Virus record (IMG/VR): IMGVR_UViG_3300030419_007368
Span: 31,632-95,631 of that record
DNA from: a virus
DNA: 64,000 nt
Strand: one strand, 5' to 3'
The position numbers and the translations under genes are program-made. The notes under the pieces were generated by a model. That model was not told where the DNA came from, ran no database searches, and worked only from the letters and a program-made list of their open reading frames with translations. Below are positions 2,398 through 62,600 of the stretch, piece by piece; the first letter of the stretch is position 1, and each line of letters begins with the position of its first letter.

Positions 2398-2423
2398 GTT
2401 GCGTGGTCTCCCTAGTGTGTACT

Positions 2424-2432: not shown

Positions 2433-2440
2433 TAGCTGAC

Positions 2441-2470: not shown

Positions 2471-2472
2471 TA

Positions 2473-3463: not shown

Positions 3464-3482
3464 TTATACCTCTCTAAACTTC

Positions 3483-4100: not shown

Positions 4101-4143
4101 CTACTACGGTCTCCTATCATATTTAAATAGTGGTAAAAATAAT

Positions 4144-7437: not shown

Positions 7438-7488
7438 ATCTTTTTCGCTCCTTAATCAAAAGCCAGCTACAAACAAACTTTTTCTTTA

Positions 7489-7497
7489 ATAAATAGT
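7489..7497 (-). promoter_or_regulatory. ACTATTTAT motif upstream of the sheath gene
   Basis: Minus strand reads GACTATTTATTAAAG in the 81-bp gap before the sheath gene, 51 nt before its ATG. Confidence 0.45.
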
Positions 7498-7518
7498 CTC
7501 GCTACTCTACAAAGTCCT

Positions 7519-8373
7519 TTAAAATCTAAATTCCCCATCTTCATCTTGCACCACGATTCTTTCTCTAGCGAATCGTATTTGTACTGCGTTTTCATTTCTT
7601 ACAACTCTTGGCTGTTTTTGGTTCTTTCCATCGCCGATAAGATAACCATAAACGTTCAGACCAATACTAGTTTCATACTTCCTCTCGTTGGATTCATAAT
7701 TTGATATATTATTTTCAATAGTATAGTCTTCATCGAAGAATGCCTCATATTCGTTCATATTGTGACTTATAATAATTCTTTTATGCGCGTTCGAAGAGCG
7801 TATAAATGGAGTCAACATGTCGTTCATTTGTTCCTGGTATTCACTCCTTAAGTATATTTTATAAACCACCTCAACGTATATTGGTATTGGAATTGTGTGC
7901 GTTTCATATACGATCTTCTTATTACCTTTTTTTCGATGCATAGGAAAATTTTTCTGACCGTATAGCCGTTTAGCATCTGCATTGGCGAAATTACTCGTTT
8001 TATCTTGGTTAATCACTCTATTTATCACCAATGCTCCGCCTTTAAGGTCACCGACAGGATCAATCATAGCATATGGAATAACCCGGCTTTTATTAGTCTT
8101 TTTTACTGCAGTTCTCTCAACTGTAATCGCTGGAAGTGTCAAGTATCCAATTTTATCGCGATCCAGCGTATCATCTTTGACGTTGTAAGCCCTCTCGGCG
8201 CCTGACCAAATTACAGGGACCTTTTCGAACCCCTTGTTAGTGCTAGTGCTAACATTCATCTGCTCATCAACAAATTTAAACAGAGCAAAATCAATATCTT
8301 CCAAATCTGACTTATATCTTATAGCGTCGCTCATGGTCTCTTCATTGATCGACCCTTCTTTCTTAGGTGCCAT
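7519..8373 (-). CDS. Tail completion / sheath stabilizer protein (T4 gp15-like)
   Basis: A 284-residue protein likely to sit at the head-proximal end of the tail and join it to the neck. The start is placed at ATG 8373 (MAPKKEGSINEE), after GGGAGGG. An upstream TTG-type extension is possible but lacks a ribosome site. Visible gp15-like features are KVPVIWSGAERAY (about 77-90), the strand pair GYLTLPAITVER, the long IPIPIYVEVVYKIYLRSEYQ segment and MLTPFIRSS, all characteristic of tail-terminator folds of this group. The gene overlaps the end of the gp14-like gene by 11 bases and precedes the sheath gene, the same order as T4 13-14-15-18-19. The assignment rests on pattern plus synteny. Confidence 0.65.
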   Translation of the reverse strand: MAPKKEGSINEETMSDAIRYKSDLEDIDFALFKFVDEQMNVSTSTNKGFEKVPVIWSGAERAYNVKDDTLDRDKIGYLTLPAITVERTAVKKTNKSRVIPYAMIDPVGDLKGGALVINRVINQDKTSNFANADAKRLYGQKNFPMHRKKGNKKIVYETHTIPIPIYVEVVYKIYLRSEYQEQMNDMLTPFIRSSNAHKRIIISHNMNEYEAFFDEDYTIENNISNYESNERKYETSIGLNVYGYLIGDGKNQKQPRVVRNENAVQIRFARERIVVQDEDGEFRF

Positions 8374-33822: not shown

Positions 33823-36800
33823 TTATTCGTGTATGTGAGCTACACCATTATTTTTCTCTATGGCTATCTCTTTGTCAACAACGTCTTTTAAGCTATCTAA
33901 ATGTGATATTAAAACAATCGTTTTAAACTGAGTTTTTATCATATCCAGTATTCTTATGAACCCCTCCATGTTTTCAGCGTCCAAAGCAGTACCGGGCTCA
34001 TCAAGTATGAACACGTCACCCTTTGGCAAGGTAGAGACATTCAAAAGCGCCAATCTTATGGCCATGGCGCCGATTGTTTTTTCCGCCCCAGACCCCATCT
34101 CAATAGGGCGGGGGTCGTGCTTCGGATGTTTAATAAGGATGTCAAGCTTGTTTTCATCATTTTCAAAAAAGATTTCAAAATCAACGATATTTGTTAAAAT
34201 TTTCGATATTTCATTGTTAATTCGAGGAAGCCTCTTTTTAATTATATCATAAGATATGCCATTTGGGTGCATGCACTTTATATAAAGATCTGCAACAGTA
34301 AACTCATCCTGCAATTCCAGAAAATATTTCTTCTGACTCACCAGTTCTTCATACTTTTGTTCCAAACTACCTGTGTTTTTGTATACCTCTAGGAGGTTCT
34401 TACGCACTGATGATAGATTTTTATTAAATTTGTTTATTTCACCATCCAACTCTTCTTGTTTGTTGGTCAAGATCTCAAAATTTTCAATAGATTCCCTGTT
34501 GTCTTCATACAGGCTTTCCTTTGCCCCTAGATCCGCCAACAAAGACTCTGCCTGCAGTAGCTTTATATTGTTTTTTTCTATTTGAAGCTCTAAAGACGAA
34601 ATTCTCTCTTTCACAGAAGCTCTTTTGTCTGTCAACATGTGATACTTTTCAATATATTGATCAAGACGATTTGGATTGAGATCCAAGACCTTGCCCTTGA
34701 TAGTTTCTTTGTTTAAAGAAAGCTGGTTTAGGGATATCCTGACTCTCTGTGTATCGTCGATAGCGCGCTTGGCATCCTTTACGAACAAACACCTATCGCG
34801 CACAGAGAAGCTACAAGGCGCTTTTTTCAAATGATCAATTTTATTATCATCTATCTCTTTCTTTGACTCAAGTTTGGAAATCTCCTCTTCAATCTCAACA
34901 ATTCTCTTTTCATGTGCGCTGGCAGCCTCTCTCTTTTCAGTAAAAGATATGATGTCGAAGCCATTGATAAAGTTTTCTATTTTTTCAAATAAAGTTTGCT
35001 GCTCTTCTAATTGCTGTGTTTTTTCTTCCTTAATCTCCTTCAAAGAAGACACAAGGTCCAAACACTCTCGCAGTTGCTTTTTCACATACCTGATGTTTGT
35101 CAGGTCTTTCGGAATAGACTGAATTTCTTTTTTTGTGTTTTCCAGCTCAGAACTGAAATTGGAGATCTTCTCTTCAATTTCGGACAGTTCTCGCTCGCGA
35201 ACCATTAATTCGGTATTTGAACGTGCAACCGCCTCCCTGGCTTCCTGGATCTCCGTATCGTAATCACGGTCAGAAAACTTTTTTATGGCACCCTTCAGAT
35301 CAGTCGAATCCTCGTTGACCATTTTGAACTTTCTATCAAAGAACTCCAAATCTAGAAATTTAGCTAAAATCTCTTTTCTTTTTGTCGACCCCTCATTCAA
35401 ATATGACAAAGAATCTAGCTGGCTTGACATGGAAGTTAGGAAAAAATCGTCCACAGAGCCAAAAACTTTGCGAATGTTTTTGTCAGTTTCCATTCTAGAG
35501 ACGCCGTTTAAGGACTTCTCCTCGTCAGTCAGCGTATCAAAAACCAAAAAATCAACATCAGTTTTTGCTTCCCAGGTTTCCTTACCTTTTAGCCTCTTCT
35601 TATATTTCTTGCTTGTTCTCTCTATCTTGTAGACCTTGTGACCAACAGTAATCTCTGCATATCCTCGACACCACTCTTCATTTTGATTTATAAGATTGAG
35701 ATTTTTACGATTGTTTTTTGAAGTAGTGTTGTAAACAGTATAAAGTAGGCTGTCAATGACACTGGATTTGCCTGAGAAGTTCTTTCCCAAGATCCCAACA
35801 ATTCCGTCAAGGGCTTCGAAATTTATTTTATTGGATTCTCCATAGTTAAACAAATTATCCCACTCCAAACATTTCAACTTCCAATTGATGTTCCTGTATA
35901 CTTCCTCCTCTTTTTCCACCAGAGCGTTGTACTTCTTGTTCATCTCAAAGACCTTCTTTAAAGTTTGGTCCTCAAGGCGATGATCGCTTAAATACTCTTG
36001 AATAAACTTCTCTTGGATAGAGACGTCTCGCAGATCCTCTTGTCTTCCTGATTTTGTCAGGTTCTCGACAGAGCCACGTTCGCCGGCGGCTCGACTCAGA
36101 TAGGTCACAACCTCTGGTTGGAAGCGTGTCTTCGCTGCATCAATCACACGACGGATGACATCCAACGGCAAATTATTTTCCGATAAAAGGCGCAGGCGCG
36201 CGCCTGTCTTGACTTTTATCTTGTTCGGTAGTCGACCCTTTGGTGTAAGTTTGACAGTTACAAAGGGTTTCGGATTCTCAATAACGTGATGTACACAAGT
36301 ATAAGAATCTTTGCTTTCGATATCCCATACCAGAAAGCCCTTATCATTTGTCTCTCCGTGATTTTGTTGCACGGTTGAGCCAGGATATCTTACTTTCCCA
36401 TGCTTATCTACAATTTGATTAGTTTTGTGTATATCGCCGAGAAAACCATAGTCAAAATTATTAAATATTTTAACATCGTCCTCGCCAGACTCCATCTTCC
36501 ACCCAGTATCCGTTACCACCCCACTAACAGAACCATGATATAGAGCAATATTAATTCTACTTGAACTGGATGGAGGGCGCCAGTTGTCCCTGTCAAATAC
36601 TGATAAAACATTGATTGCAAATTCATCATTTAAAGCAACCTCTCCGCTATTTTTTAATAGGTGTAAATTGGGGTTCTGAAGTGCATTAGCTATTGGTGTT
36701 AACGCATCTTGCCTGTTAGAGTTTCTTAAATTTCCGTCGTGATTTCCTAGAATTACATATGTCGGCGCTATATTCGCCAAATTATTAAGGAAATTAGAGC

Positions 36801-36978
36801 ACAAATCAACGAATTCAGGACTAATTTGAGTTTTTGTGTGAGCTATGTCGCCACAATGTATGATATAATCAACTTTTTCTTGTTTGATCTTGTCATACAG
36901 CTTTGAAAATATCTCACGATATTCTTTGTGATACTTTAAATTTCTGATATGAGTATCAGCTAAATGAGCAAATTTCAA
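33823..36978 (-). CDS. SbcD-SbcC (Mre11-Rad50; T4 gp47-gp46) single-chain fusion
   Basis: A 1051-residue protein combining a nuclease and an SMC-like ATPase that process DNA ends in recombination-dependent replication. The start is TTG 36978 (read MKFAHLADTHI), with GGAG 7 bases upstream; the conserved Mre11 opening confirms it. Nuclease part (1-230): Asp8/His10, HCGDIAH (Asp44), LGNHD (Asn79/His80), YHG (His148) and GDIH (181-184), all metal-binding motifs. ATPase part (about 370-1051): Walker A GKNFSGKSS (398-406), a long coiled coil (about 575-890), signature MGSGAEK (961-967), Walker B VFILDEP (989-995) and the H-loop ISH. The hook apex shows Cys722-X7-Cys730 instead of CXXC. In T4 these are two genes, 47 and 46. 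Confidence 0.93.
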   Translation of the reverse strand: MKFAHLADTHIRNLKYHKEYREIFSKLYDKIKQEKVDYIIHCGDIAHTKTQISPEFVDLCSNFLNNLANIAPTYVILGNHDGNLRNSNRQDALTPIANALQNPNLHLLKNSGEVALNDEFAINVLSVFDRDNWRPPSSSSRINIALYHGSVSGVVTDTGWKMESGEDDVKIFNNFDYGFLGDIHKTNQIVDKHGKVRYPGSTVQQNHGETNDKGFLVWDIESKDSYTCVHHVIENPKPFVTVKLTPKGRLPNKIKVKTGARLRLLSENNLPLDVIRRVIDAAKTRFQPEVVTYLSRAAGERGSVENLTKSGRQEDLRDVSIQEKFIQEYLSDHRLEDQTLKKVFEMNKKYNALVEKEEEVYRNINWKLKCLEWDNLFNYGESNKINFEALDGIVGILGKNFSGKSSVIDSLLYTVYNTTSKNNRKNLNLINQNEEWCRGYAEITVGHKVYKIERTSKKYKKRLKGKETWEAKTDVDFLVFDTLTDEEKSLNGVSRMETDKNIRKVFGSVDDFFLTSMSSQLDSLSYLNEGSTKRKEILAKFLDLEFFDRKFKMVNEDSTDLKGAIKKFSDRDYDTEIQEAREAVARSNTELMVRERELSEIEEKISNFSSELENTKKEIQSIPKDLTNIRYVKKQLRECLDLVSSLKEIKEEKTQQLEEQQTLFEKIENFINGFDIISFTEKREAASAHEKRIVEIEEEISKLESKKEIDDNKIDHLKKAPCSFSVRDRCLFVKDAKRAIDDTQRVRISLNQLSLNKETIKGKVLDLNPNRLDQYIEKYHMLTDKRASVKERISSLELQIEKNNIKLLQAESLLADLGAKESLYEDNRESIENFEILTNKQEELDGEINKFNKNLSSVRKNLLEVYKNTGSLEQKYEELVSQKKYFLELQDEFTVADLYIKCMHPNGISYDIIKKRLPRINNEISKILTNIVDFEIFFENDENKLDILIKHPKHDPRPIEMGSGAEKTIGAMAIRLALLNVSTLPKGDVFILDEPGTALDAENMEGFIRILDMIKTQFKTIVLISHLDSLKDVVDKEIAIEKNNGVAHIHE

Positions 36979-37035
36979 CTATACACTCCTCGGCATATAG
37001 TAAATAATAGAAACGACAAGGAGGTAATAAAGGAA

Positions 37036-37738: not shown

Positions 37739-38677
37739 TCATATCCTCGCAATCTTACTCAATAAATAGTTATCAGAACTCAAAAAGACCGCTGATTGTT
37801 TTCTGGACAAGAACTCCTCTTTTGACATCTCCCCAACATCATTAAAAGGATCAATGTCTACCTTATGGACCTCAATATCATATTTTAAAAATAATCTTAT
37901 AAGACTGTCTTGCTTCTTTTCAGCATCAGAATCCAGAGCAAGATATACAGGGGTGTCATTCTTGACAATCTTGTGGAAAAGAGAAGAATTCTCATTCAAA
38001 GTCGACCCCAACAAAGGAACAGAATTCTCTCCTGCCTTTATTGCGTCAAAAACCCCCTCTACGATTACCAGGTCTTCGTCAAAATCCAAATAAAGCTCAT
38101 TAAAGATAATGTCCCTGCTAGCTGTTGGGTTTAAATATTTCTTCCAAGAACCATCGTAGGACCTCGTCACAAAATAATTCACATGGCCAGAAAGATCGAA
38201 AGATGGTATGACTAGCCTGCCGCTATATTTTCCAGCTGCGCAATATCCAATTTTCCACTTCATAATATCGTTCTTGTTCACAGAGCGACTATTAAGATAG
38301 TTCAATGCTCGAATTGATGTGCTTGGCAGATCTTTGTTGGTGAGCGAAACAAAATTTTGAGGTAATGAGATTCTTTCCGGGGGAGCAATCTCTTCTGGGC
38401 CGAAGAGCTTTTCAGCAAAATTTTCTATTTCAATTTTCTGATCGAAACTTCTCCAATTGAAACGAGCTTGTCGGCCTCCGTATTTTCTTATTATACGATA
38501 TAAATTTCGTCCGGACCAATCGCACACCCAACACTTGAAGACATTTTTAGATAAATTTACAGATAATTTTTTCTTGTGGTGGCCGCACTTAGGACAAAAA
38601 AACAAATATTCACTATTAGAAGTGTAGAAAGACCCTAGAACCTCTTTGAGAATAGTTAGCTTTTTTTCTTCTGACAT
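37739..38677 (-). CDS. DNA primase (DnaG-type: zinc ribbon plus TOPRIM)
   Basis: A 312-residue primase that would make RNA primers for phage replication. Zinc ribbon near the N-terminus: FFCPKCGHH (Cys28, Cys31) and FKCWVCDWSG (Cys49, Cys52). The central part has YRIIRKYGG and the conserved RLVIPSFD...GHVNYFVTRS segment (154-174). The TOPRIM domain has VIVEGVFDA (Glu207) and LALDSDAEKK (Asp249, Asp251). No helicase domain is attached, so a separate helicase is expected outside the window. The ATG overlaps the resolvase stop by 22 bases, so the two genes are coupled. It is shorter than bacterial DnaG (about 580) and about the size of T4 gp61 (342). Confidence 0.9.
   Translation of the reverse strand: MSEEKKLTILKEVLGSFYTSNSEYLFFCPKCGHHKKKLSVNLSKNVFKCWVCDWSGRNLYRIIRKYGGRQARFNWRSFDQKIEIENFAEKLFGPEEIAPPERISLPQNFVSLTNKDLPSTSIRALNYLNSRSVNKNDIMKWKIGYCAAGKYSGRLVIPSFDLSGHVNYFVTRSYDGSWKKYLNPTASRDIIFNELYLDFDEDLVIVEGVFDAIKAGENSVPLLGSTLNENSSLFHKIVKNDTPVYLALDSDAEKKQDSLIRLFLKYDIEVHKVDIDPFNDVGEMSKEEFLSRKQSAVFLSSDNYLLSKIARI
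37762..37770 (-). promoter_or_regulatory. ACTATTTAT motif in the end of the primase gene
   Basis: Minus strand reads TAACTATTTATTGAG, 27 nt before ATG 37734 of the Gly-rich gene. It lies inside the last codons of the primase gene. Confidence 0.35.
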
Positions 38678-39183
38678 TCAGACCAGCCCGCTCTGGCAAT
38701 CACCCAACTATCTGCTTTGTCATAGCAATCAGGCTTAACGTTTCCATGCTTAGTATAAGTTATAGAAACGGAAGGGACGTTGTCAAGGACATGTTTTATA
38801 ACACATTGCTTCGCCTTTGTTCCTCTTGGTACGGTTATTCCACACAGCTTTCTAGCTGAAGTAGCTGCTATGTATTCTGGTTTTGTCTGCAATATTCTAT
38901 ATACCAGCCATGACACCACCCCATTAAAACGAGCGAGAGTTGACAAAGTTTTAGCCGAGGAGAATCCAGATCTGAAACTTTGGAGAGATTGCTCGATATA
39001 TACTCTTTCGACTCTGAAGCCGTCACCACAAAGCTGACGAATACGTTCTTCAACGTATTCTGCTTTTTCAAAGAAGTTTTTATACTTTCTCGTATCCCAA
39101 GACTCATTATAAACAACCTCCCCTGATGCGTCCACTATAGTTGCACCGGTGATACTAGTACTTACATCTAATCCCAAAATCAT
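38656..39183 (-). CDS. RuvC-like Holliday-junction resolvase / RNase H-fold nuclease
   Basis: A 175-residue protein with the RuvC fold signature. The first strand is MILGLDVSTSITG with Asp5; the second acidic residue is in RVYIEQSLQ (Glu64); C-terminal acidic residues are in DCYDKADSWVIA (Asp155, Asp158). The Ser/Thr-rich loop after Asp5 and the 'KQCVIKHVLD' helix are also RuvC-like. It could cut branched DNA before packaging, replacing a T4 endonuclease VII function. It overlaps the primase gene downstream. No Shine-Dalgarno is evident, and a TATAAT lies only 6 bp before the ATG (39190-39195), so a leaderless transcript is possible. Confidence 0.85.
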   Translation of the reverse strand: MILGLDVSTSITGATIVDASGEVVYNESWDTRKYKNFFEKAEYVEERIRQLCGDGFRVERVYIEQSLQSFRSGFSSAKTLSTLARFNGVVSWLVYRILQTKPEYIAATSARKLCGITVPRGTKAKQCVIKHVLDNVPSVSITYTKHGNVKPDCYDKADSWVIARAGWSECQKKKS

Positions 39184-42663: not shown

Positions 42664-45651
42664 TTATGTTTCATCACTTTCAGTAATTTTTTTATGAAAT
42701 GCAAAATTAATGTCTAGTTTCTTGCCACTACCCTTTGAAGTAATCCTCATTTTATATCTTTTTTTCTTAGCGGTTGCGCCTACATCGGAAAAAATACTCT
42801 CAACTCCCGACGTAAAGTATAACTGTTTTGGAGTCGGTTTTAAATAAATATATTTTTTACATTCCTTTATAGGGCTCTTTTTCTCAACAGGCTCCATGGA
42901 GACAGTTCTTATTAACGGTTTCACGGCGCCTTTCTCATCTATCAACTCAACCTCGTAGACGCTAGAAGGGTTTGATACATGCCCGTGCGCGTCGATCGAT
43001 CTAAATGTATAGTAATATTTAGTATTTGGCAATATTTGCTCTTCAAAGACGCCAGTCGTCGTTTTGTAATATTCAAAATCACCCCACGAAGTAGGTTTGA
43101 AGTTAATTCTAAATATTTGAAAATTCGTCACAGGGTCGTCAGAACCAAACTCAACTTTGTATCTTCCATCCGGACGGATGGGAGCTAGCTGTGAAGCTCT
43201 TATTTTTTCAAATGCCGCTTCATCTCCATCAATTAAAAATACTGGATAATCAGTATAGCGATCCGACAGGCCGTCCAGCAATATCTTCAATCTGTTGTTA
43301 ACCGCCCTGTATGGCACAATGTTCACATATGGTGGTACAGGAGGCTTGTCCATTATTAATATATCTGGCGTAGAAAAAATCAAATCCTCTACCATTTTTA
43401 TAGAAGGGGACACTTCGACGCTTAAAACAGCCGAAAAATCTCTAGATTCAATCGCTCCGTTGGCTTTTGTGTTCAAAGTTTCGCCGACGCCAACCGAGAG
43501 AATGTCTGCGTCCTCGGCGAGAACGTCCGGGTTGTCATCTTCACTTTTTAAGAAACCAGTTTGTTTATGGTCAGGATGAAGAGGGGCTCCAGGGTTTACC
43601 CAATAATATACGTATTTACACCCAAAAACAACACGTTCACAATAAACATTGTATTTGTAAACAGCAGCATCCTCATACTTAAGCTGCGTGTCGACAAATT
43701 TAGCTATATCTAAATCAGAGGTGTTTGGTATTAATATATTCTGCACGACAGAAAAAGAATCTTCATTTGGCAATTTGCGCATTTTCTCTATTTTATAAAA
43801 TAAATCTTCCGTATATGCCGGCTTTCCTTTCAAAATATCCACATAGGATCTTCTGTGATTTTTGTAAGTCTCAGTTATTTTTTTATAAAAAGCAGCACCA
43901 AACAAGATCTTAAACATCTGGTTTTCTTCTAAATTCACAGCATCGTCTAAATCATTTCGAACGAAGGTCACATAGTTTCTGACGTCTTCCTGATCAGGAA
44001 TATAATTGTTGTCTGCGCTTAAAGGCTCATGGGCGCCTGAATAATAGTCTCCAGAATTGAGCCATTTCTCGAAAACTGCCGGCAGGTCTAAACTTTTAAA
44101 AAATTTTGGTGTCGACAACTCACCCATGGAGTACTCAACTTCAGCTGTTTGTAGGTCTTTATACACACTCTCTTCATAGTATTCGATAAAAGATACTTGT
44201 TCCGAATAATCTGCTTTGAAGGAGTCTGCCTCGCCCCCAAGAGACATCGCAGATATGGTGTTGCCAAAAAACGGTGTCATGTGAGTTTGTTTCGCCGCGT
44301 CGCCTAAAGAGGTCAGCAATTTAGCAGAGAATTGTATCTCAGCATAGAAGGGGAAATGTTTCTTGTACTTCTCAATTTTGTCCATAAATGGCGTCATATT
44401 TGGACTAAAAACCAAATTGGTGCCTATACGCTCTAAAGCTTTGATTCTCTTATTTTCGCTATCAGAATCAAGAAAAAGTCGGGTATCTGTTGACAGTCGA
44501 TTTGCGAATTCATTAAAATAGTCTTGATACAGGCCGTCGACATCAAATTTTGTCGTCCCGCCCTGTCCGTTAGCATAGGTCATGGTGATAAGCTTTTCAA
44601 TTATTTTTGTTCCGATGTCTGCGGTACCGACCCACCCTAAATCTGGGTACCAAGGATCCCAACCTTCGTTACCAACAGTGCCGTATAGGGTTATCAAAGT
44701 CTCTAAAGGATAATTTTGCAACAAGTTTGTATACAAATCAGGCTTTGGTGTGGTCTCACTGTCTTTCCAATAATAATCTATAATACTTTTTTCTAACTCG
44801 CTTAAATCAATAAAACTATCTTGAATTAACTTATCGTTTTTGATTAAACGAAGAAATCCATAAATAGAAGGAAGGGCATTCTGCAGATCGTTTTTTAACG
44901 GAGACCCTACAACTGACTCATAGTAGTAACTCTTGACCCGCTCATTATAATATGTTGAATAATTTGCATAAAACGTTTTGCCAGCAGGTTGTTTTTCAAA
45001 CAGCTCATTTTCATGAAAAGGTAAAAAAGTTTCATGATAGTGGTCATAAAACGGAGTTGCTGCATCCACAATAGGATCTAGCGGATTGCCGGCTTCAATG
45101 ATAACGCCGGTCTTCATCAGATAAATCCAGTAAAATAGCTCCTTGGAACCGGCGTGGTCCTGGAAGGGGTTGTCATTGTTATCTACGTGACAATTTAAAA
45201 CAACCCTTTCTCTTGTCGAGGCGCCGGTGAGCCCCCAGACACCGTCGCCGTCGATTTCTTCTGGATCTGAGCAACTCTCCATTGTTAGTGGATTATTACA
45301 AAAAACTTTAATTGTGTTCCAACTATTTGAAAAAATCTTATATGAATCTGCATCATCGTATATACCGCCTGGATAGTCTGCCTCTCGGTGCTCCCAGTTG
45401 CAACCTAGTGCAGTGCGTAATGTGTCTTTAGACGGATCCGAAGCAAGAGAGTATTCTCCACCAAGTACTTCTACTTTATATGCTGACTGGATTGAAGATC
45501 CGAGCCATGGGTTCGGGCCGAACAAACCACTGCCCGGACCTGAGCCGCCGGCGGCGGTGTGGTCGTCGTTCGGATCACGAGGCACAGACTCATAACTACT
45601 GGGATCGACCAATATTTTCCTTTTTCCAACTAATTCAAATGAATCTGCCAT
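42664..45651 (-). CDS. Large structural/adhesin protein with FnIII-like domain (995 aa)
   Basis: A 995-residue protein rich in Tyr, Asp and Asn, with helical stretches in the middle (EKRIKALERIGTNLVF-type segments; a run around NHRRSYVDILKG). Around residues 767-909 a beta-sandwich of fibronectin type III character is visible: NRLKILLDGLS ... NFQIFRINFKPTSW ... ILPNTKYYYTFRSIDAHGHVS followed by YEVELID. The C-terminus is basic (TAKKKRYKMRITSKGSGKKL). The ATG follows GAGGGG. It lies between the 1354-aa and 371-aa structural genes and is probably part of the same tail-tip or baseplate assembly. Confidence 0.75.
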   Translation of the reverse strand: MADSFELVGKRKILVDPSSYESVPRDPNDDHTAAGGSGPGSGLFGPNPWLGSSIQSAYKVEVLGGEYSLASDPSKDTLRTALGCNWEHREADYPGGIYDDADSYKIFSNSWNTIKVFCNNPLTMESCSDPEEIDGDGVWGLTGASTRERVVLNCHVDNNDNPFQDHAGSKELFYWIYLMKTGVIIEAGNPLDPIVDAATPFYDHYHETFLPFHENELFEKQPAGKTFYANYSTYYNERVKSYYYESVVGSPLKNDLQNALPSIYGFLRLIKNDKLIQDSFIDLSELEKSIIDYYWKDSETTPKPDLYTNLLQNYPLETLITLYGTVGNEGWDPWYPDLGWVGTADIGTKIIEKLITMTYANGQGGTTKFDVDGLYQDYFNEFANRLSTDTRLFLDSDSENKRIKALERIGTNLVFSPNMTPFMDKIEKYKKHFPFYAEIQFSAKLLTSLGDAAKQTHMTPFFGNTISAMSLGGEADSFKADYSEQVSFIEYYEESVYKDLQTAEVEYSMGELSTPKFFKSLDLPAVFEKWLNSGDYYSGAHEPLSADNNYIPDQEDVRNYVTFVRNDLDDAVNLEENQMFKILFGAAFYKKITETYKNHRRSYVDILKGKPAYTEDLFYKIEKMRKLPNEDSFSVVQNILIPNTSDLDIAKFVDTQLKYEDAAVYKYNVYCERVVFGCKYVYYWVNPGAPLHPDHKQTGFLKSEDDNPDVLAEDADILSVGVGETLNTKANGAIESRDFSAVLSVEVSPSIKMVEDLIFSTPDILIMDKPPVPPYVNIVPYRAVNNRLKILLDGLSDRYTDYPVFLIDGDEAAFEKIRASQLAPIRPDGRYKVEFGSDDPVTNFQIFRINFKPTSWGDFEYYKTTTGVFEEQILPNTKYYYTFRSIDAHGHVSNPSSVYEVELIDEKGAVKPLIRTVSMEPVEKKSPIKECKKYIYLKPTPKQLYFTSGVESIFSDVGATAKKKRYKMRITSKGSGKKLDINFAFHKKITESDET

Positions 45652-50736: not shown

Positions 50737-53700
50737 TTATTCTCCAACCTCAAATTCAATATCAATCTTAATCGATTCAATCAAAGAAAAATAATCATAT
50801 GGCCAGTTATGACCGACGACTTCACCCAGCCTAACGTTTGAGAACTTGTCTTCCAAGTCGAAGCTAAGTTCAGGTGCGTCTGGCTTTGACTTTAATTTTT
50901 TGCGTATCTGTGTTGCAATTTGTTTTTCCCTGTAGGATCTAAAATCTTTTTGCCCTCTCTCCTTTACTTTAAATACCATAAATTTAAGATTTTTATAAAA
51001 ATCTTTTGCTGTCCACTGGGGCCATAACTCGCCTCCGTCTCCAGTTGAGAGGTCTTCATCTGAATAAGGCGGCGGTACCGGCGCCTGAAACGGAAGCGGA
51101 GACAAAAAGTTGGCTGGGTTCCAAGAACGGAGATCTAAAGACATTTGCATCGGTGCTCCTGGGACGTCGAGTTCGCCGCCGGAGCCGAGCATTGTCGGTG
51201 TGAAAAATTTCACTTCGGGCAGCAGTTCTTCATGCAGATCAGTTTTAGACGGCGCTACTACAATTTGTTCAATCATCTTTTGAGCTTTTCGGCTGACATC
51301 TGGCATTATCCCTTGATAAATATTTATCAGGTCTTGTTTACCCAGGAAGTGCTTAAATGGCACAACCATCATTTGAAATGGTTGATTGTTGAAGTGTATA
51401 AAATCAAATTCTGGTGGCAATTGATATCCGTTTATACCAGCAGAAGGGTTGCCGTAAAGCATCCTGATCATTTTCCCACAGTCCGTGGACATTGCAGATG
51501 CGTACACATCATCATCGGCGCCGTGGAGGGTCTTATAAATTGGGTTGTCTTTCCCGTAAAGCTCTCGCGTTAAAAATGTAGACAAAATACGGTCAAAAAC
51601 GTTTTCTTGAATGGGCAAAAAGTGCTTGCCCGGGATAACCTCTCTTGTTCTGTATAATTCAGGCATTGGTTGATAGGAGTCTTTTGTTTGGCTGTAATCG
51701 CCGGGGTGGATACTTTTCTCTAAACTCGGGTCCACAATTTTGTCAGACTCATATGCAATTTTTCTATCAAAATAAGGTATTATTACCAAAGCTTCTGATA
51801 TTTGTTTAGTAGAGGCAATCTTGCCGATTTCAAAAACTTCTCTCTCAAATCCGATTTTCCTAATCAGCGAATCAATAGTAGGTTCTGCATCACGATATGT
51901 CGACCGGTCAGTGTAAAACCCTTCGCCATCGGACAAATTGGTTGTAAACCCGACGTCTCCAGGCAGGGAAGCTTCCTCAAGGGCAAAATTATCGTCAACA
52001 GTCATATAAATCCCTTTTCCTTGGGCGGCCGTGGAAGAATTCATCGCTGCAGCGATTTCGTTTTTGGCATATACGTCGTAAGGGTCGGTACCATAACCTC
52101 CCCACATGGACCTCCCCGTTGTTTCGTCATGATACGTATTTTGTACAGTTTCAAGAACATCACCAACTCCACCATGGAAAGCATATGAAGAAGAGAAATC
52201 TAGGACAGGACAGACCCACTTTGGAGTGATATACCAAGAATAATAGTTGTCATCTTGTCCTTCTTTCCTGATTAATACAGGATCGTTGAAAACATCAATA
52301 CTTGCTTCAATTTTCATTCTAGTGGCGGACCCAGTGGACACTGATGCAGTGTTTGGCACCCATTGCGCCAAGCCACCTGTTACATTGTATTTTTCAAAAT
52401 AAGACGCATTTGCTTTAACCTGATCTTGAATCCAAGTTAGCGAAACACCACTACCATTACCTTCAGCATTGGCGATGGAACTGGAGATATTTAAAAATAT
52501 CTGACTCTCTCCGTAAAAATATGGAGGAGTGAATGCCTGATAAGCAGGATCTTGTAAGTTAGCAGCATAATAACTCTCATAGTTATCTTTACCGACTTCA
52601 CAAAATTCATCGTATTGATCAGTTTCATAATTTTTAACATTACTAACAAATTTATCTTCAGACCCTGTCAATGGAACAATTTCTATTGGAGGACCATATA
52701 AATAACCTCTCAAGCTTGAAAACTTTTGAAATGCACTATTTCTATCAATCTTGTAGCCAGAGCGTCGAGGGCCCTCGCACATCACTTGTTGTGATCCCAT
52801 GTACAGGCCGACGCTCATATAGAACTTCACATTCTGATCAGCAAAAACAAGAGTTTCTTTTGATTTTGGCTCTGAAACAGCTATAGGAAACTTTACGTTG
52901 GCGGTTCCTTGGTCGGCTAAAAAGAACTGCATGGTTTCTGCCAGGAAGTTATTCATTGCGGAAAAGTACTCAGGCACCTCGACGGGTAAAGAGGGATCCT
53001 TCCAGCCGAGGTCGAATTCTGGCTTTAACATACAATTTGGAGTGTATGTGTAGTTTGCGCTATGGCCAGCAGTACCGCTGACTGTACCTGCAAAAGAAGC
53101 TGAGGATATCCTATCAAAATCTGTAAAATCTGGTATAAGATAAGAAGCCTTAAATTTATTAATTCCGAGCTGTAATTTGCCGGGTTCATATAAAGCTTCA
53201 AACGGCAATCTATAATCCGGTGCGCTCGTCAAAATTGCTGGAGTTGTCCTACTCTCTCCCAGCATGTAACCACCGCCGTATCCAAATGAGGCACTAAACA
53301 TCGATCCGGTTACCGCCCTAGGTGGTACAAATAATCTTGGTGCTTTGTTATAGACTGGGTATTCGACAGCTATGCCAGATTTGATTGAATTATATAAAAT
53401 GCCAGGGGCCATCAGCGGTTCCAAAAAAGACTGTAGGCGCGCCGCATCGAATCCAGGGGAGACACCGAACTGTGTTTGTTCTAATTTAAGTTTTCCTGAC
53501 TGGCCTAGCGGAGTTCCAAATGTTCTTACATCCGGATCTCCTGTCAAATCTAAGCCCCAGTTGTCATCATGGCCTTTTTGCACGCTTTCCTGCAAGAAAC
53601 TAATTTGATTTGTCGTCATATGGGCATTAGTCAAGTAAGGCCCGAAGGCCGCAGACAAATATGTTCCTAGTTGTGTTGTCCTGGTAACGGGATAAAATCC

Positions 53701-56628
53701 ATTGTACGGTAATAGCTTTTTAATTCCTCTGCATATAAATTTTATTTTATTCGGGACCGTGTTTGAATCTTGTTTAAATCCATGACCCTTCTGGTCAAGA
53801 AGGTGAGCAAAGCTTAAAATATTGTCAGTGTGTAAATATTTCTCTCTGAAAGCAACACTTCCACTATCCCAGTCCCAATGATGTGTTGTGTTCGTGGGCG
53901 CACTGCTTTCTACTACTCCAAAATTATCATCATATCTCCACCTTTGGGGAACACCAGTTGCAGGGTGAGCTGCCGGATCGTTCATTAAAGAAAGTGATTC
54001 TATTCCTGCCGATGAAGAAATTTCTCCACCTTCAATTGATAAATTGTTTATTTTCGAACTAAGCTTCATAAACCCGCCGAAGGGGCCCGAATCGATGGGA
54101 GAATGGTATCGCTCGATTAATGGTTTATTATAAGACAAGTTTGGATTCGTGGGCGCATCCTTCACTTCATACAACGGTTTGTCCATCTGTGAGGTACCAC
54201 CCACATATTTGTGATAATACTTGTAATTGGGAGATATTTTAAATTCTGATACAATGGAATAGTCTCTTCCTAAGAATTTGACGACATCTCCTATAAAAGA
54301 ATTATAGTCATTATACATCGGATCTCTTCCAATGACTTTATTAGTCACATAAAACGGCGTATTGTACGGATATGTGTGTCTAAGATACTGCAACGATGCT
54401 GTGGGAGAAGCATAACCTGATTCTGAATCCTTACCTCCAGTAAACTCATATGGAACATTTCCAGCCACCGAATCGTTGAAGTCTCCGGCGGTTGCTATTT
54501 TTGTTTGACCGGCAAAACCAGGAGATGTTTGCCCAAGATAAATGATTGGGCGCGCGTCTTCGGTGATGTCGTAAGAAGCGGTTATTCCAGGGTGATAGGG
54601 GCCGAATTTTGCTGAGGAGCCAGAATGAGCGCTGGCAGATAGAGGGGTAACCGCGTTGATCGCGTTCACAAGATTAAAAGCAGACTCTCTTGGGCTGGAT
54701 CCTCTCGAAAAACCAATAACGTTTGGAGTCGAAGTTAGATTAGTTGTTGCTCCCTCTGTGTAAATAATAGGTCGACCATGAGAAGAAGTTAATATTATAG
54801 AAGAGTCAGCTTCAATCGCGGCCATAAGTGTGAATTGTGCGCTGGCTGTATGATTCGTCATACTCCTTCTATAATAAAAAATAGTTGGTTTCGTGCTATA
54901 AGCTAATTCTCCGGCGGAACGAGTTACCATTCCAGGAGGCACACCCGTTGCACGAGAAGGAGTCGCATGAATGTAGTAGGTCTTCCACGCTGGTAATGAT
55001 GCACTCAAGGTCGAATTTGCAAACGTTGTTGTCATCGAATAAGGTACAGAATGTGGAGAAACGCCAATTTGGCGTCCTTTACCACCGATGCTAGATGTAA
55101 GATATGGCAGCACCACTGAAGCGCCTTCGCTGTCCGTAAATGTGTCAAACATGTCTTCACGAGTATCCAGAGGCCACATACTTAATAGTGAAATTGGATA
55201 AGGCTGATATAAAACATGTTGCACAAAACCTCCATACGGTTGTACAAGAAGGTTGCCATCAGCGTCAATGTTAGCTGATCGTGACAAGGTATTGATACCG
55301 TTCATCACAATTCCGTTAGATGTGTAGTGTGTAATATGGTTCCAAGGGCCGAATTCGTCAGCAGCATTAGAACTTGTGCCGTGCATGACAGACGATGTTA
55401 ACCCATTAGAGGCCAGCAAAAACGGAATTTGTGTGTGTTGTGGCCAACTTTGCGAATTAGACGCGGATTGATTTGTTCTCATTCGAGATGTACCATCAGA
55501 ATATATTGGAGGAAGCCTGAGGGCTTCTTCCGCTGTCCGGCCGCGCTGTAATTCTTTCCAAAAGCTTCGATTTAGAGTTCGATCATAACCATTCGAACCT
55601 AACCCGGGTTCTTCTTCATAGTGTGGTCTTTTTAACTTGAACGGTCGATAAGCGTTAACGCCCTTAGGGAATATCGTTTCAGAGTATTTATAATTTGATG
55701 CGCCGACGTCGCTACTAGCGTGAAAAATTCCGTACAATTGTTGTTTCCCGTGTGTAGGTCCAGGCGACGAAGCTGAGACAGGATCCGTTTCAGAAATTTT
55801 CATTCTATAATTTAATTGAGGATTTGTGAAAAAAGACAACTCATTGGACAGAGATACCCTAACTCGGCCAACGCCGGCTATGGAGCCACCAGGTGTCATG
55901 AACAACCCAGTATCGTAGATTAACGGCTTAAATTTCGAAACAACTGTTGGCTCATAATAATATTCTATCTTGGGTCGAATTTTGTCGCCAACAAAACCTG
56001 GAAGATGATCGAAAGTGCCTTGAAAAGTTATATGAGAATATGATCCCCATGGGGCGCCCAAATTCTCCTCGTATTCTTTTCTTTCCCTCCAAAGAGATTT
56101 AAAATATGAATGCTTTTCTTTAGGATCCGAAAACCCAACTTCAATCGACGCGGTATTAAATCTGCGAAGTTTTCTAGCAACAGAATGTTCACCACCGCGG
56201 ATTTGTTTCCAAGAAGGGTGCTGGTATGGCCCTTGACGATTTAATAATACAGAATTTAAAACAGTTGCTTGTGATGCTTTGATTCCTTCAGCGCCGGTTG
56301 CTCGTTTGAACGCACCGTTGGCCGGCCATGACTCGTTAAAGTTAAGCACAGACCCTGTCTTGAAAGACCCGGCAATTGAGCCGAAAAGGCCACTATAAAA
56401 CAACGATGCAGATAGTATATTAGCAGAGCCTTCGCCAGTGGGGCTAAAATGCATTTCTTCTCTAATGATTGTATTCAGGCCTACAAAATCAACGGGTATA
56501 AACTGATTTACCGCTGAAATTGTGTCAGCATCAGCATGCGTCCAAGCATATTGACGATTCCCGCCGGCATACCTGGCGGAGCCTATATCACTAGCGCTTA
56601 TAAAATTTAATGATCCACTAAAAGCCAT
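50737..56628 (-). CDS. Giant virion protein (1963 aa)
   Basis: It begins MAFSGSLNFISASDIGSARY. Near residues 125-160 is LLNRQGPYQHPSWKQIRGGE followed by HSVARKLRR, a stretch that I recall from giant proteins of uncultured marine phages. The body is Ser/Gly/Tyr/Pro-rich with many short beta strands and loops. A helical, more globular section occupies about 1600-1960 (KFVSNVKNYETDQYDEFCEV earlier; REKQIATQIRKKLKSKPD near the end). No protease or glycosidase motif is evident. The ATG follows TAAGG; a TATAAT-type promoter lies just upstream. It is likely a structural component of a large baseplate periphery or adhesion device. Confidence 0.8.
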   Translation of the reverse strand: MAFSGSLNFISASDIGSARYAGGNRQYAWTHADADTISAVNQFIPVDFVGLNTIIREEMHFSPTGEGSANILSASLFYSGLFGSIAGSFKTGSVLNFNESWPANGAFKRATGAEGIKASQATVLNSVLLNRQGPYQHPSWKQIRGGEHSVARKLRRFNTASIEVGFSDPKEKHSYFKSLWRERKEYEENLGAPWGSYSHITFQGTFDHLPGFVGDKIRPKIEYYYEPTVVSKFKPLIYDTGLFMTPGGSIAGVGRVRVSLSNELSFFTNPQLNYRMKISETDPVSASSPGPTHGKQQLYGIFHASSDVGASNYKYSETIFPKGVNAYRPFKLKRPHYEEEPGLGSNGYDRTLNRSFWKELQRGRTAEEALRLPPIYSDGTSRMRTNQSASNSQSWPQHTQIPFLLASNGLTSSVMHGTSSNAADEFGPWNHITHYTSNGIVMNGINTLSRSANIDADGNLLVQPYGGFVQHVLYQPYPISLLSMWPLDTREDMFDTFTDSEGASVVLPYLTSSIGGKGRQIGVSPHSVPYSMTTTFANSTLSASLPAWKTYYIHATPSRATGVPPGMVTRSAGELAYSTKPTIFYYRRSMTNHTASAQFTLMAAIEADSSIILTSSHGRPIIYTEGATTNLTSTPNVIGFSRGSSPRESAFNLVNAINAVTPLSASAHSGSSAKFGPYHPGITASYDITEDARPIIYLGQTSPGFAGQTKIATAGDFNDSVAGNVPYEFTGGKDSESGYASPTASLQYLRHTYPYNTPFYVTNKVIGRDPMYNDYNSFIGDVVKFLGRDYSIVSEFKISPNYKYYHKYVGGTSQMDKPLYEVKDAPTNPNLSYNKPLIERYHSPIDSGPFGGFMKLSSKINNLSIEGGEISSSAGIESLSLMNDPAAHPATGVPQRWRYDDNFGVVESSAPTNTTHHWDWDSGSVAFREKYLHTDNILSFAHLLDQKGHGFKQDSNTVPNKIKFICRGIKKLLPYNGFYPVTRTTQLGTYLSAAFGPYLTNAHMTTNQISFLQESVQKGHDDNWGLDLTGDPDVRTFGTPLGQSGKLKLEQTQFGVSPGFDAARLQSFLEPLMAPGILYNSIKSGIAVEYPVYNKAPRLFVPPRAVTGSMFSASFGYGGGYMLGESRTTPAILTSAPDYRLPFEALYEPGKLQLGINKFKASYLIPDFTDFDRISSASFAGTVSGTAGHSANYTYTPNCMLKPEFDLGWKDPSLPVEVPEYFSAMNNFLAETMQFFLADQGTANVKFPIAVSEPKSKETLVFADQNVKFYMSVGLYMGSQQVMCEGPRRSGYKIDRNSAFQKFSSLRGYLYGPPIEIVPLTGSEDKFVSNVKNYETDQYDEFCEVGKDNYESYYAANLQDPAYQAFTPPYFYGESQIFLNISSSIANAEGNGSGVSLTWIQDQVKANASYFEKYNVTGGLAQWVPNTASVSTGSATRMKIEASIDVFNDPVLIRKEGQDDNYYSWYITPKWVCPVLDFSSSYAFHGGVGDVLETVQNTYHDETTGRSMWGGYGTDPYDVYAKNEIAAAMNSSTAAQGKGIYMTVDDNFALEEASLPGDVGFTTNLSDGEGFYTDRSTYRDAEPTIDSLIRKIGFEREVFEIGKIASTKQISEALVIIPYFDRKIAYESDKIVDPSLEKSIHPGDYSQTKDSYQPMPELYRTREVIPGKHFLPIQENVFDRILSTFLTRELYGKDNPIYKTLHGADDDVYASAMSTDCGKMIRMLYGNPSAGINGYQLPPEFDFIHFNNQPFQMMVVPFKHFLGKQDLINIYQGIMPDVSRKAQKMIEQIVVAPSKTDLHEELLPEVKFFTPTMLGSGGELDVPGAPMQMSLDLRSWNPANFLSPLPFQAPVPPPYSDEDLSTGDGGELWPQWTAKDFYKNLKFMVFKVKERGQKDFRSYREKQIATQIRKKLKSKPDAPELSFDLEDKFSNVRLGEVVGHNWPYDYFSLIESIKIDIEFEVGE

Positions 56629-56658: not shown

Positions 56659-56687
56659 ATTATACACTAAATTATTGATGCTGTTAT
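56659..56687 (-). promoter_or_regulatory. Candidate sigma70-type promoter before the 1963-aa gene
   Basis: Minus strand: ATAACA (56682-56687), 17-bp spacer, TATAAT (56659-56664), followed by a leader of about 24 nt with TAAGG before the ATG at 56628. The -35 lies in the end of the previous gene. The match is 4/6 for the -35 and 6/6 for the -10. Confidence 0.4.
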
Positions 56688-59600
56688 CCATCTTGTTTGA
56701 TTGTCTGTTCTTGGGATCATGTGTGACACAAATCCATTGTCAAAAAACGAAGCCGTGATAAAACCACCAGCTAAATTTGCTCCACCGCTTGGATCATCTT
56801 TCCGGTCCAGACTATCGCCAACAAACTCAATTCTTTCAATGTTGTTTTTATGATATCTGTGCATGGAGGCAGATAGAACAATGTAGTCATCGGCGCGGAT
56901 CAGTCCGCGATCGTATGGACCAGTGTTCCAAAGGCCTTCGTAAATCCTCGCTGAAGCAGTCGTATGCTCACTAGCGCCAAATTTACCCATATGTGCTTGA
57001 AGAGTTGAATTGTGCGCTGCTCTAATCCAGCGGTTCCTCCAAGGCATCGCGTTATAAACAGAATAAATCTCATGTGCTGGGTCTAAAAATCCCCTAGTCA
57101 TAACTTCGAAACCGCCAGGAGCGCTGAACCTGGACTTAAGCCTGGTTCTATTCCTAACAGATCCTGTTAAGTACGTTCTATCTGGGAGTGATCCAGTCGA
57201 CTCTCCAGATGGCACTAGATCTGAAAACTTTTCAGGGCCCGAACCTGTCGGAAGGTTTAAAAGTCTGCTTGTTATACTCGACCCTGTTAAATTTAAAGTT
57301 AGCGCAGAAGTTTTTACAATACTGTCAACATTTTTAACAAACCAAGGATCGTTAGCTTCAGGGCTCAAAGTGTTGATATATTCATATCTATCAAAATAAT
57401 TTCCAACTGTCATTGTGCCTGATACGGAGCCGGTCGTTTGAACATTTCTTATATTCACTGGTCGTTTAGCTAACCCGTCTCTTGTTCTTGTTGCATAAGG
57501 TTTACGGTGATCATCAAAAGTTGGGTGCAGCATTTTAAAAGAATTCTGTTTAACTCCATCGTACTTATAAACATAAACGTTGTCAATTGCAGCGTCGCCT
57601 CGAACAGAAGTGGGGTCTGAATAAAGAAATCTTATGAAAAATCTCTTACCCACAAAACTTTCCAAACCAGAACCGTAGTCAGTAGAAGAAGCAATTGCAT
57701 TTTTAAAAGGCAGGCCGGCAAAAGCATGTTGCTCACCAGATATAGAAGAAGATAAAATAGGCGAGGCGCCGTCGTGATCCCAAGTAATTGCAATATCAGT
57801 GACATCCGCACTAAAATCTCTAGTAGGCGATGCTTGCACGCTTAACGTACCGCAACCGCCGCCATGCATATGATACCCAAAAGATAATCTGATATCTTCT
57901 CCTTCCTGTACGTCAATAAAATCTATAAGCGGAGTTACCAGGCCGAAAGGTCTAGCAGATCCTATGTAATCACTGGCATCGCAATAGGCATAAGTACCGG
58001 CGCTGGGGCCGGTGCCTGGTGTGGAAGTCACTCCATCTACAAGCTTCCATTTGTTTGGGGCAGAAGAGACGCCGTTTGTCCAATACTCATACTCGCTCGG
58101 ATCATCTATGCTAAATGGGTTGCCCGTCATGGCCGGGCGAAGTACTTTTGTATCAGTAGTGCCGCCGCCGCCTGCAGGTACGTCCGCAAATCTTTCTAGA
58201 AGGACATATTCGGTCTCGTCTAAATTCAAAAAGAATTGTAAAAACCACCCCTCGGGTCGGGATATTTGGTTGTCAGAACCTAGATTTAAATCTACATGAC
58301 GGTGCTGCATTCCCCCTACATGCCTTTCTGTAAAAGGGCCCTGCATTGGTATTTCAGCGCCGATACCATATTTATCTTCATGAATGTTGGTAAAATCGAT
58401 CTTGTATTGGCTGCTGTATTTTGAAGCATAACCGCTGTCTATAGAAGATGAAAAAATATTAAACGGTAAAAGGAGGCTGCTCTTCGCATCAACATACTCA
58501 TAATCATAGCTACCCGAGCCAGGAAGACCGGTGTCGATTTCAGAAGCCTCCATTGTCAACGCATTGAATCTAAATTCTTTTCTATTTACTGCAGCAGGTA
58601 CCGGATTATCGGCGCAATCAACTTGTTTTATTTCATTGTCTAAATCTAGGTAAATGAAATCATCGTCGGATCCGAATTTAATGGCGCCTTTATAGAAATC
58701 ATGTCTTTGTGCTGAATCCGGATTGGCGCCTGCTTTAAGGTTTAGCGACTTATCAGTCACCAAATCAGTTACTCGCCCCAAACTTCTATAAGAATAATAG
58801 GATTTAATATATTTTGCACCTTCAACAGTTTTTAATGTCGGAGGACCTTTACCGCCAGTCGACCCAGTTAACTCAGTCACGAATATTTTAAGCAAACTAT
58901 TCCTATCAGAATCGACGCTAGAGTTTTTAGTCCTTTTTGGACCATCTCTTTCTGCGCGCTCGTTCCACCATAAGCAACTTTCGTTCTGTGTTCCTGGGCC
59001 TGAGGAAATCTCGCCGGCAGAAACAGGGGCGTGACCAAATTTCCAGTTATATTTAAGCTCCTCTATGCCATGAAGAGAACCAACAAGAATCGGAGGGTCC
59101 GACTCCAAAGTCGGAAATTTAGACCAGTACTTGCTTCTTTCTAAAATATGACCCTCAACCATGTTTCTTAACAATTCAACAGTGTTTGAAGAGACAGGTA
59201 TCAATTGATAAATCATCATTGTTACTGCGTCATCGACCCACTTGAAATATTCTGTGAATTTCTCTAAATCTGGTTCATTTTCGACTCTTTCAAAGAATAG
59301 TTGTTTTAATTTCTCTACTTTTTTGTAACGTCGACGATAACGATTAACAGGATCTCCTACTAAATTGTTAAAGTCAACGACTGTTGCAAAAAACCTCAAC
59401 ATTTCTTCAGAAATTATTTGATACATGCTCTTTTCGACAGAAAGAATATGCTGGACATAAGTCGTGTCTCTTGTAAAAACTACATCGTCTTGCTTGTTCA
59501 GCAATTTGACCATATCGTCGCTATTTACAATCTCCGGCAGTTTTTGTTTTGCTGTTTGCACAAATTCGACATCAACGGCCTGGCCCCTGTGAGGAACAGA

Positions 59601-62600
59601 TGAAACAAAAAAGTCGCCGCGGCCGGCATAATTATATTCGCTTATATCACTCAACCACCCATAGCGGGATATTGTTTTGTCCCGCAAAGATCCAGAAGTG
59701 TAATCATGAATTAGAAATTGCCCACTACTATCAGAACCAGTAACGTTATCTAAAGTCCAATTTAACATTAAGGTGTCAATTTCTGGAATATACGTGTCAA
59801 AAAGCTGCTTGTGGCTAGCGGCGAAGCTTGTGTTCTTGTATGGGTGTAGCCGGCCATAACTATGAGCATTTTTAGCGTGGGCTCTGATTGTTTCATCCGA
59901 CAAATAATCAAACCAAAAACGCACAGACGATACTTTTACATCAGAATATTTTTCGACACTTCCAGTAAAGTTGGTTCGTGCGGCGCCAACAAATATCCTT
60001 TTTGGCTGTGTGAAAAATTTCTCAGCCTGGCCATAACTGATCGTACCGCTGAGAGAGAATTCATTTTGAAGTACATTAGAAACATAATTGACACCGTATA
60101 GTTCATATGTGTATGATTCATCATATGCGTCTGAAGAGCCAGATAAACTGCCAGACACTAAGCTAGCGAAAGGATACTTTGTTGGCTTCAATCTAAAGGC
60201 TAAGTTCCACTTTTCATTATCATAAACACCCATGAAAGAGCCTGTCGACAAATCAGACAATATAGGACTAGAACCTGAAGTGACTAGTGCAAAGGTGACG
60301 TTGCGCTTGTCATTGTCGGCCTTGTTCGCTACAATATTAAAGTTAATTGTATCATCGTCAGCAAAAGTTAAATCAGTGTTTGAAGCCCTGACTGCGTGCA
60401 TTCCAAACAGAGAGGCGATATTTGTTGGAAACAAATGATAATTTTTATCAGAAGCAATGAATCTCTTTGGAAACATTACTTCTGCTTCTAAAGTCATAGA
60501 CGAACCTGAAGCGGCCAGTGCAGAGATTGCAGGAATATATGATATGGAATTTCCGTCGGATTCATCATAATATTGATAAGCAGTTGCAGTAAAAGAGTTG
60601 GTGTACACTGCAGAAGAAGTCAGTCGAGTTTCTAAATCATCAAAATCAATATATTTCTTTCTTATGGCGGTGTTTGTAAAATTGTCCTTGAACTCGTAAA
60701 CATCATTATTAGCATAAATATTTAATTTCACCAATTCTTCATCGACGCCAAAACATCTTAAGAAATTTCTTAAAGATTTATACGTGCCTTTAGATTTTTG
60801 GATATACGATAAATTGTTATATATATTTTGATATATTGTGTTTTTTACTTCATGTAATTTCTTTTCAAAAAGCTTCTTTTCATCTCTTTCTAAATATTTT
60901 GCTAAAGCAGACGCATGTGCAAACAGCTCTGGTGCATCATAGCCCCGAGTTGTCAGCAGCCTGTCAGCAAAAGGTAGTGGCTTTTCATAATCATTGTCAA
61001 ATGGATAGTTTATATCCTTCAATCTTGGCAGTTTTTCAATTTGCAGATAGAGATCGTCAAAAAAGCTAGCGATTATTTGAGTTAAATATTTTAACTGAGA
61101 AGTCTTCTTTTCATCTTCTTCTGCGATCCATCCGGGCATCGATCGGTAGAGAGAAACGGAATTTTCGTGATCATGCGCGGCGCCGTCTTCTTTGCGATTA
61201 GTTATCAAAGACGATACTTGTGAATGATTGGAATACAAAATCGGATCTTTGAATTCTTCGTCTGCGACGCCCGCCAGCACCATAGCAGACCCAGTTGCAC
61301 GGAGACTGTTGCTATAACCTACAAACTCTCCGTTGGAAATTCGACCAGAATAGTCCAAAACAGAAGAATCAGTAGAGTCAATACCAACTATACCCTCGTT
61401 AAATTTATAATACACCCCCAAATCAACATAATTTAAAATATCATCATATTTTACGTTATCAGTATTGGTGCCGCCGCCGAGTTGCGCTTTAAAATACCTT
61501 CCTAATTGTTGTGCATCACGCTCTGTTTTCCAATATCTAAATTCGTCGAAAGAAGCAGAAACTAGTTGACCAAAGCCTCGGCCGCCAGATTGTTGTGTCT
61601 CCGTAGAAGAACCGCTAATAGCCGCGACGCAGGCGCCCAAAGCAGCAACCATGGTGCCGCTAAAAGCAGAAAGAGGTCCAGCTGCAGCAGTTTTCTTAGA
61701 ATTATGTACGCCATCAAAATAAAGCCTTGATATGGTCGTAGTTGCTGTGTCTTTAAGCGTGATTGCGTAATGATGCCAGTTATCATCAGCTATATCAGAT
61801 ATAGGTGCTATGTCATGAGTAAAGACCAAGGCTGTTGAGCCAGAACGTGCGTTGACGGTAACTCTGTCCTTTTTAGACCTAGACAAACTAACTCTAAAAT
61901 CACCGTAATTGGGGCTTGTGCCGGTACCTGTATGGCTTCCTGTGTTGTGAAGGTGAAAAATATATTCTTGAAGGTCGTAAGCAGTGCCGTCTTGAGTAAG
62001 CTGAGGCGCCCATGCTGTCTTTTTCATCCAAAATTCGATCGTCACACCTTTGGCTAGATCAAACTCTAGGTTGTTTGTTCTTTGACTACCTGTGTGATAT
62101 ATGTTGGCTTTGGAAGTGCCAATTTTTGACGGGCCCGCTTCTTTTTCATACTTGTAGTTGCCATTGGGGTCTGCATTAGGTCCTCCCTTTATGAAGATAT
62201 ATTGTGGGAAACTAGAACTAAAAATAGGTAAATTTGGAGACTTGTTTCCTGCAAAAGATGTACCTTGTCCAACTGAAACATAACCATTTGTTCTGGGATA
62301 TTCGTGTTCAAATATAAAAAGGTCTAAATAAGTGCTATCGTTCTCCCATTCAAGCTTTTCTGCTAAAGAGCCATCATAAGGATATGTCTCATATATTCTT
62401 TTTATAGCAGATTCGTAATACAACTCTGCTGATCCGAAACGAGCAAAATTAGAAGCGGTTGTAAAATCAACGTCGGGTATGAATCTATTTCTTTTCTTAG
62501 AATAAGCGTCGACATAGCGAGGAGATTCTAAGTCATCGCGAACGTCCGTCAAAGCCTTGTTTTTCAAGAACTTGAGGGAATATCCTTTATCAAATAAATC

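Follow-up and report, generated by a model that had tools for sequence, protein, structure and literature searches.

A fused Mre11/Rad50 (SbcDC) gene with a non-canonical hook motif in a marine tailed-phage genome and in related viral contigs

The stretch of viral DNA analysed here, referred to as the window, comprises 64,000 nucleotides of the IMG/VR record IMGVR_UViG_3300030419_007368 (positions 31,632 to 95,631 of the record). On its minus strand, positions 33823-36978 form a single unbroken frame of 1051 codons and a stop, in which an N-terminal Mre11/SbcD nuclease is followed by a C-terminal Rad50/SbcC ATPase (Table 1). The Pfam matches to Metallophos (3.2e-14, residues 1-184) and AAA_23 (1.8e-7, residues 374-620) pass the cut-off; SMC_N (9e-8, residues 368-1044) scores 32.2 bits against a cut-off of 40 and so falls short of it. 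PHROG profiles assign residues 1-244 to SbcD (1.3e-32) and residues 305-1046 to SbcC (1.8e-47), and a PDB profile search returned Rad50, SbcC, SbcD and Mre11 chains. The frame, Pfam and PHROG thus bear out the initial annotation, which had placed both proteins in one frame, and the two family matches, which in a two-subunit SbcCD would fall in separate sbcD and sbcC genes, lie in the same ORF. The start codon is TTG and not ATG, with an in-frame TAG immediately before it. The GC content is 0.45-0.48 across the capping and join region (window positions 35850-36300), compared to 0.33-0.41 over most of the fused gene.

Table 1. Positions of the fused gene, its parts and its neighbours in the window
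Feature	Position	Strand	Basis
Fused Mre11/Rad50 (SbcDC) gene, 1051 aa and stop	33823..36978	-	Frame, Pfam, PHROG
Shine-Dalgarno-like GAGGAG	36986..36991	-	7 nt ahead of TTG start; sequence
Calcineurin-like (Mre11/SbcD) nuclease core, residues 1-232	36283..36978	-	Pfam, PHROG, invariant catalytic residues, model secondary structure
Capping-like alpha/beta domain, residues 239-295	36094..36264	-	AlphaFold2 secondary structure; assigned by analogy with Mre11
Low-confidence loop, probably flexible, between capping-like domain and helix-loop-helix, residues 298-311	36046..36087	-	pLDDT <50
Putative Mre11 Rad50-binding helix-loop-helix, residues 319-357	35908..36024	-	Model helices 319-333 and 337-357; assigned by position and analogy
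Join of ~7 residues, 358-364, with R362-N363 of RNxxW	35887..35907	-	Model and alignment
Rad50 N-terminal ATPase lobe, residues 365-544, Walker A GKNFSGKS (K404)	35347..35886	-	Pfam, model, alignment
Ascending coiled coil, residues 545-719	34822..35346	-	Model helices
Non-canonical hook C722-x7-C730, coiled-coil apex	34789..34815	-	Sequence, alignment
Descending coiled coil, residues 731-903	34270..34788	-	Model helices
Rad50 C-terminal ATPase lobe, residues 908-1051, with SGAE 963-966, D993-E994 and H1026	33826..34257	-	Pfam, model, alignment
Neighbouring DNA primase	37739..38677	-	PHROG 47, 3.1e-40
Neighbouring RuvC-like resolvase	38656..39183	-	PHROG 159, 2e-6

All nuclease and ATPase motifs named in the initial annotation are present, and they are intact in 55 aligned relatives. 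Invariant are D8, H10, D44, N79-H80-D81, H148, D182 and H184 in the nuclease, and K404 (Walker A), S963-G964-x-E966 (signature), D993-E994 (Walker B) and H1026 (H-loop) in the ATPase; S405 is replaced by threonine in one of the 55. Asp182 stands at the position of His206 in P. furiosus Mre11, and Asp likewise replaces this histidine in Mimivirus R555 (PMC3175470). The ATPase is of the bipartite Rad50 type, its halves carrying Walker A (398-405) on one side and signature (963-966) and Walker B (989-994) on the other, with a coiled coil (helices 545-903) between them.

An AlphaFold2 monomer model has a mean pLDDT of 82.2 and a pTM of 0.52, which does not fix the relative placement of the domains. 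In the model, the nuclease core is followed by the capping-like region, a loop, two helices and the first Rad50 strand at residue 365. The join between the second helix and this strand (358-364) is aligned without gaps in 54 of the 55 relatives. The RNxxW motif is kept even in Microcystis phage Mel-JY01, in LR756501 and in the relatives L098, L099, L100 and L101, but its tryptophan (W366) already belongs to the beginning of the Rad50 strand. A phmmer search of the PDB with a 140-aa stretch over the capping and helix-loop-helix part and the join alone gave no match. The top Foldseek hit among solved structures was the Chaetomium Mre11-Rad50-Nbs1 complex, with E. coli SbcCD in third place. Among viral models, long DNA-repair proteins of giant viruses came at the top, with Tupanvirus first, followed by Tenacibaculum and Listeria phages; the lead of the giant viruses agrees with what was reported for Mimivirus R555 in 2011.

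Two rival explanations concern the fusion itself. The first is an artefact of assembly or gene calling, in which two genes were joined in frame through a missed stop. The frame is known from assembled contigs. In IMG/VR, a first search yielded 4 loci and an alignment-based search the best 80 more of at least 587 relatives; the full protein lies in one frame in 78 of these 84 related viral contigs, and the remaining 6 end at contig ends. A nuclease-part query (distant clade), chosen so as not to favour fused genes, gave both domains in one frame in 77 of its best 80 loci, with 3 cut at contig ends and none split. These searches cover the best 80 loci and were seeded on motifs of the fused family, so that rarer split relatives may be under-sampled in the counts. 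The ungapped join also speaks against an artefact. Because independent contigs carry the same frame, an assembly error is refuted, and we consider an artefact of this kind practically excluded. The same domain order, for which a search of phage databases had been proposed, was found in many independent contigs, and no close relative that was examined consists of two separate genes.

The second explanation is that two proteins are made from a single mRNA, either through translation from an internal start or through proteolytic cleavage of the loop 298-311, and that the working enzyme is an ordinary two-subunit SbcCD. The loop is probably flexible in the model, and codon 346 of the frame reads ATG and is preceded by AAGG. 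The initial annotation had found neither a stop nor a ribosome site between the domains; the former holds, and the latter is nearly right, given this ATG. However, the combination of ATG 346 and a Shine-Dalgarno-like motif occurs in only one of the 55 relatives, a start at this codon would cut the second helix, and the join is strongly conserved. An internal start for a separate Rad50 was rejected since it is not conserved among the 55 relatives, and the production of two proteins as a whole appears very unlikely.

A two-gene annotation in Rhizobium phage RHph_TM39 (L010:5061-8907) was considered as a natural split and rejected. The two CDS share N-terminal sequence and one contains an N run; the annotation is a misassembled fused gene.

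Some loci of relatives show further peculiarities. In L079 (6959-7902) and L084 (4164-5074) a GIY-YIG-like endonuclease ORF directly follows the fused gene, and behind it stands a second copy of the last ~60 residues of the gene, from Walker B (IFILDEP) onwards. This looks like a homing endonuclease with its target at Walker B that supplies a substitute 3' end for the gene. A leftover 3'-end copy without endonuclease is found at L057:9150-9359. In L002 (5672-6578, LR756508) an insert of ~0.9 kb interrupts the nuclease domain; it carries an ORF with cysteine-rich fingers and a putative endonuclease, and an Rfam search of the insert gave no match and no intron. Finally, the chromosome of a WOR-3 bacterium MAG (CP070664.1, L097:~2000-8050) contains, flanked by N runs, a piece of phage DNA that encodes RuvC, primase and the first part of the fused protein; this is probably a chimeric scaffold.

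Fusions of this kind have been described before. Yoshida, Claverie and Ogata reported in 2011 Mre11/Rad50 fusions in Mimivirus (R555), plasmids, bacteria, eukaryotes and Bacillus phage 0305phi8-36, and noted that the viral fraction of aquatic samples is enriched for R555-like reads, some of which they proposed to be phage-derived (PMC3175470). The novelty implied by the initial annotation therefore does not stand: the fusion is real and common to many aquatic viruses, but its kind has been known since 2011, including one case in a phage. The fused contigs found here fit the proposal of phage-derived aquatic homologues.

From its published description, Mimivirus R555 has the same order of nuclease and ATPase in one chain, the same Asp in place of His206, and the capping and helix-loop-helix parts; it is likewise the sole copy in its virus record and common in aquatic viral DNA. 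It differs in size (1351 aa) and in belonging to a giant virus of amoebae, whereas the protein described here has 1051 aa, a CX7C apex and a tailed-phage genome. The SbcD-SbcC fusion of Bacillus phage 0305phi8-36 (A7KV18) was reported without the capping/helix-loop-helix part and without one P-loop segment (PMC3175470). Further counterparts are Mel-JY01 WWT39521.1 (1066 aa) and the uncultured huge-phage records LR756508 and LR756501/LR756503, which contain both domains and are related over nearly the whole length; in Mel-JY01 the primase adjoins as it does here. Their identity to the fused protein is ~23-31%, and they have a CXXC hook. Rhizobium phage RHph_Y65 gp240 (Kleczkowskaviridae, 959 aa) also has nuclease and ATPase in one frame, but is very distant, with a different join and a CXXC hook. 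Both Mel-JY01 ("AAA domain containing protein") and RHph_Y65 gp240 ("SbcD-like") are unrecognised as fusions in GenBank. In the split systems, namely T4 gp47/gp46 and the SbcD/SbcC of cyanophage, Sinorhizobium, Caulobacter, Herelleviridae and T5-like phages, the same two domains, presumably with the same chemistry, are encoded by a pair of genes that small genes often separate; the eight checked have CXXC, and in the ATPase tree these systems do not fall within the fused clade. A DNA-level search of known phages gave no near relative. A bacterial or plasmid origin was rejected, with only two weak plasmid matches, and where genome contigs gave full-length matches, these were small metagenome-bin contigs, probably viral.

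In trees of the nuclease and ATPase cores, the clade of the window groups with the Mel-JY01-like clade, apart from the T4-like and Herelleviridae pairs. RHph_Y65 falls outside and is possibly an independent fusion, with the caveat of its long branch. The ATPase tree is compatible with a single origin of the fusion, the split rows lying on one side of a branch with support 86/83. In the nuclease tree, which has long branches, a single origin needs extra changes, and one metagenome-bin row that has only the nuclease (L103) falls within the fused group.

The virus record with the fused gene comprises 147,474 bases and carries the terminase, portal, protease and major capsid genes of a tailed phage. 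SbcC and SbcD have one match each in it, both in the fused ORF. No second copy of either was found in the record, which may be incomplete, so that a further copy is possible. The same record contains a RecA-family recombinase gene and a match to a family A DNA polymerase, and none to family B. Ten relatives with genomes of 147-204 kb were searched; each has a RecA-family gene and a single strong SbcC match. Of the 59 loci with enough upstream DNA, 58 have a primase in the neighbourhood of the fused gene and 54 have a RuvC-like resolvase there. Elsewhere in the window, the minus strand carries an ORF of 1963 aa (50737-56628) and, next to it, one of 1981 aa (56667-62612); a 995-aa ORF (42664-45651) has no PHROG match at 0.001.

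Taken together, the gene very probably encodes a single-chain SbcDC, which would act as a dimer and resect DNA ends in the service of recombination-dependent replication and repair. The fixed 1:1 ratio of nuclease to ATPase, already pointed out in the initial annotation, follows from the sequence. As to the form of the dimer, its binding in cis, the enzyme activity and the biological role, we infer the following scheme. Two identical chains would pair via the nuclease domains, the ATPase heads and the coiled-coil apex, so that a single gene product would supply the usual 2:2 nuclease:ATPase machine. By binding and hydrolysing ATP, the heads would alternately expose and block the nuclease, and the nuclease would clip or resect double-strand ends and hairpins; with D182 at the His206 position, its use of metal is a prediction only. 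The product would feed the RecA-family recombinase of the phage for recombination-dependent replication and repair, and a possible extra role is to help degrade host DNA. That the main role is instead the breakdown of host or competing DNA seems unlikely to us. T4 gp46/47 is annotated as also needed for host DNA degradation, but the primase and RuvC neighbours and the RecA-family gene in every searched relative point to replication and repair, and the two roles are not exclusive.

As ~7 residues separate the Rad50-binding helices from the first Rad50 strand, the helices most likely hold the base of the coiled coil of their own chain. They might also act in trans, each helix-loop-helix gripping the coiled coil of the partner in a domain-swapped dimer. 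Such an arrangement is compatible with the sequence, and the model is a monomer whose pTM leaves room for it. The short join between helix and strand argues against it, as does the distance of ~28 A from the Mre11 C-terminus to the Rad50 N-terminus in the T. maritima complex, which 9-12 extended residues bridge (PMC3175470) and which favours binding within the same chain. We therefore give the swapped form a low probability and prefer the grip in cis.

The apex of the coiled coil is the one part in which the protein departs from the canonical Rad50. The canonical CXXC zinc hook of Rad50/SbcC, called highly conserved in a study of the human hook (PMC9569753), is absent, and C722-x7-C730 is found in its place. 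Among 54 members of the window's clade, 37 have CX6C, 7 CX7C (together 44 with CX6-7C), 8 CX2C and 2 neither. The sister fused clade has CX2C wherever the test is applicable (49/49 and 41/41), as do all eight split phage SbcC proteins checked. In two close relatives (L089 and L090) the apex lacks both CX2C and CX6-7C and contains only GCKC. The 2011 fusion paper leaves the zinc hook unmentioned (PMC3175470), and no CX6-7C hook was found in the literature, as far as open-licence papers are concerned. We tentatively suggest, as a possibility and not as the expected outcome, that the window's clade replaced CXXC by CX6-7C (PCGx[FY]xxCKFIKDA and variants), the two cysteines being separated by a short helix, and that the resulting metal binding or dimer geometry would be different, so that DNA ends would be tethered otherwise than in the studied Mre11-Rad50 complexes. 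Whether a non-CXXC hook dimerises at the apex through zinc is uncertain.

With regard to the wider family, many aquatic sequences of the R555 type from the 2011 study could plausibly derive from tailed-phage-like genomes of 147-204 kb with a RecA-family gene. A Mre11-Rad50 of 1051 aa with a fixed ratio and encoded by one gene would be convenient for structural and single-molecule work, because one chain controls mutations, stoichiometry and assembly. The variant apex offers a natural test of whether the geometry of the zinc hook matters.
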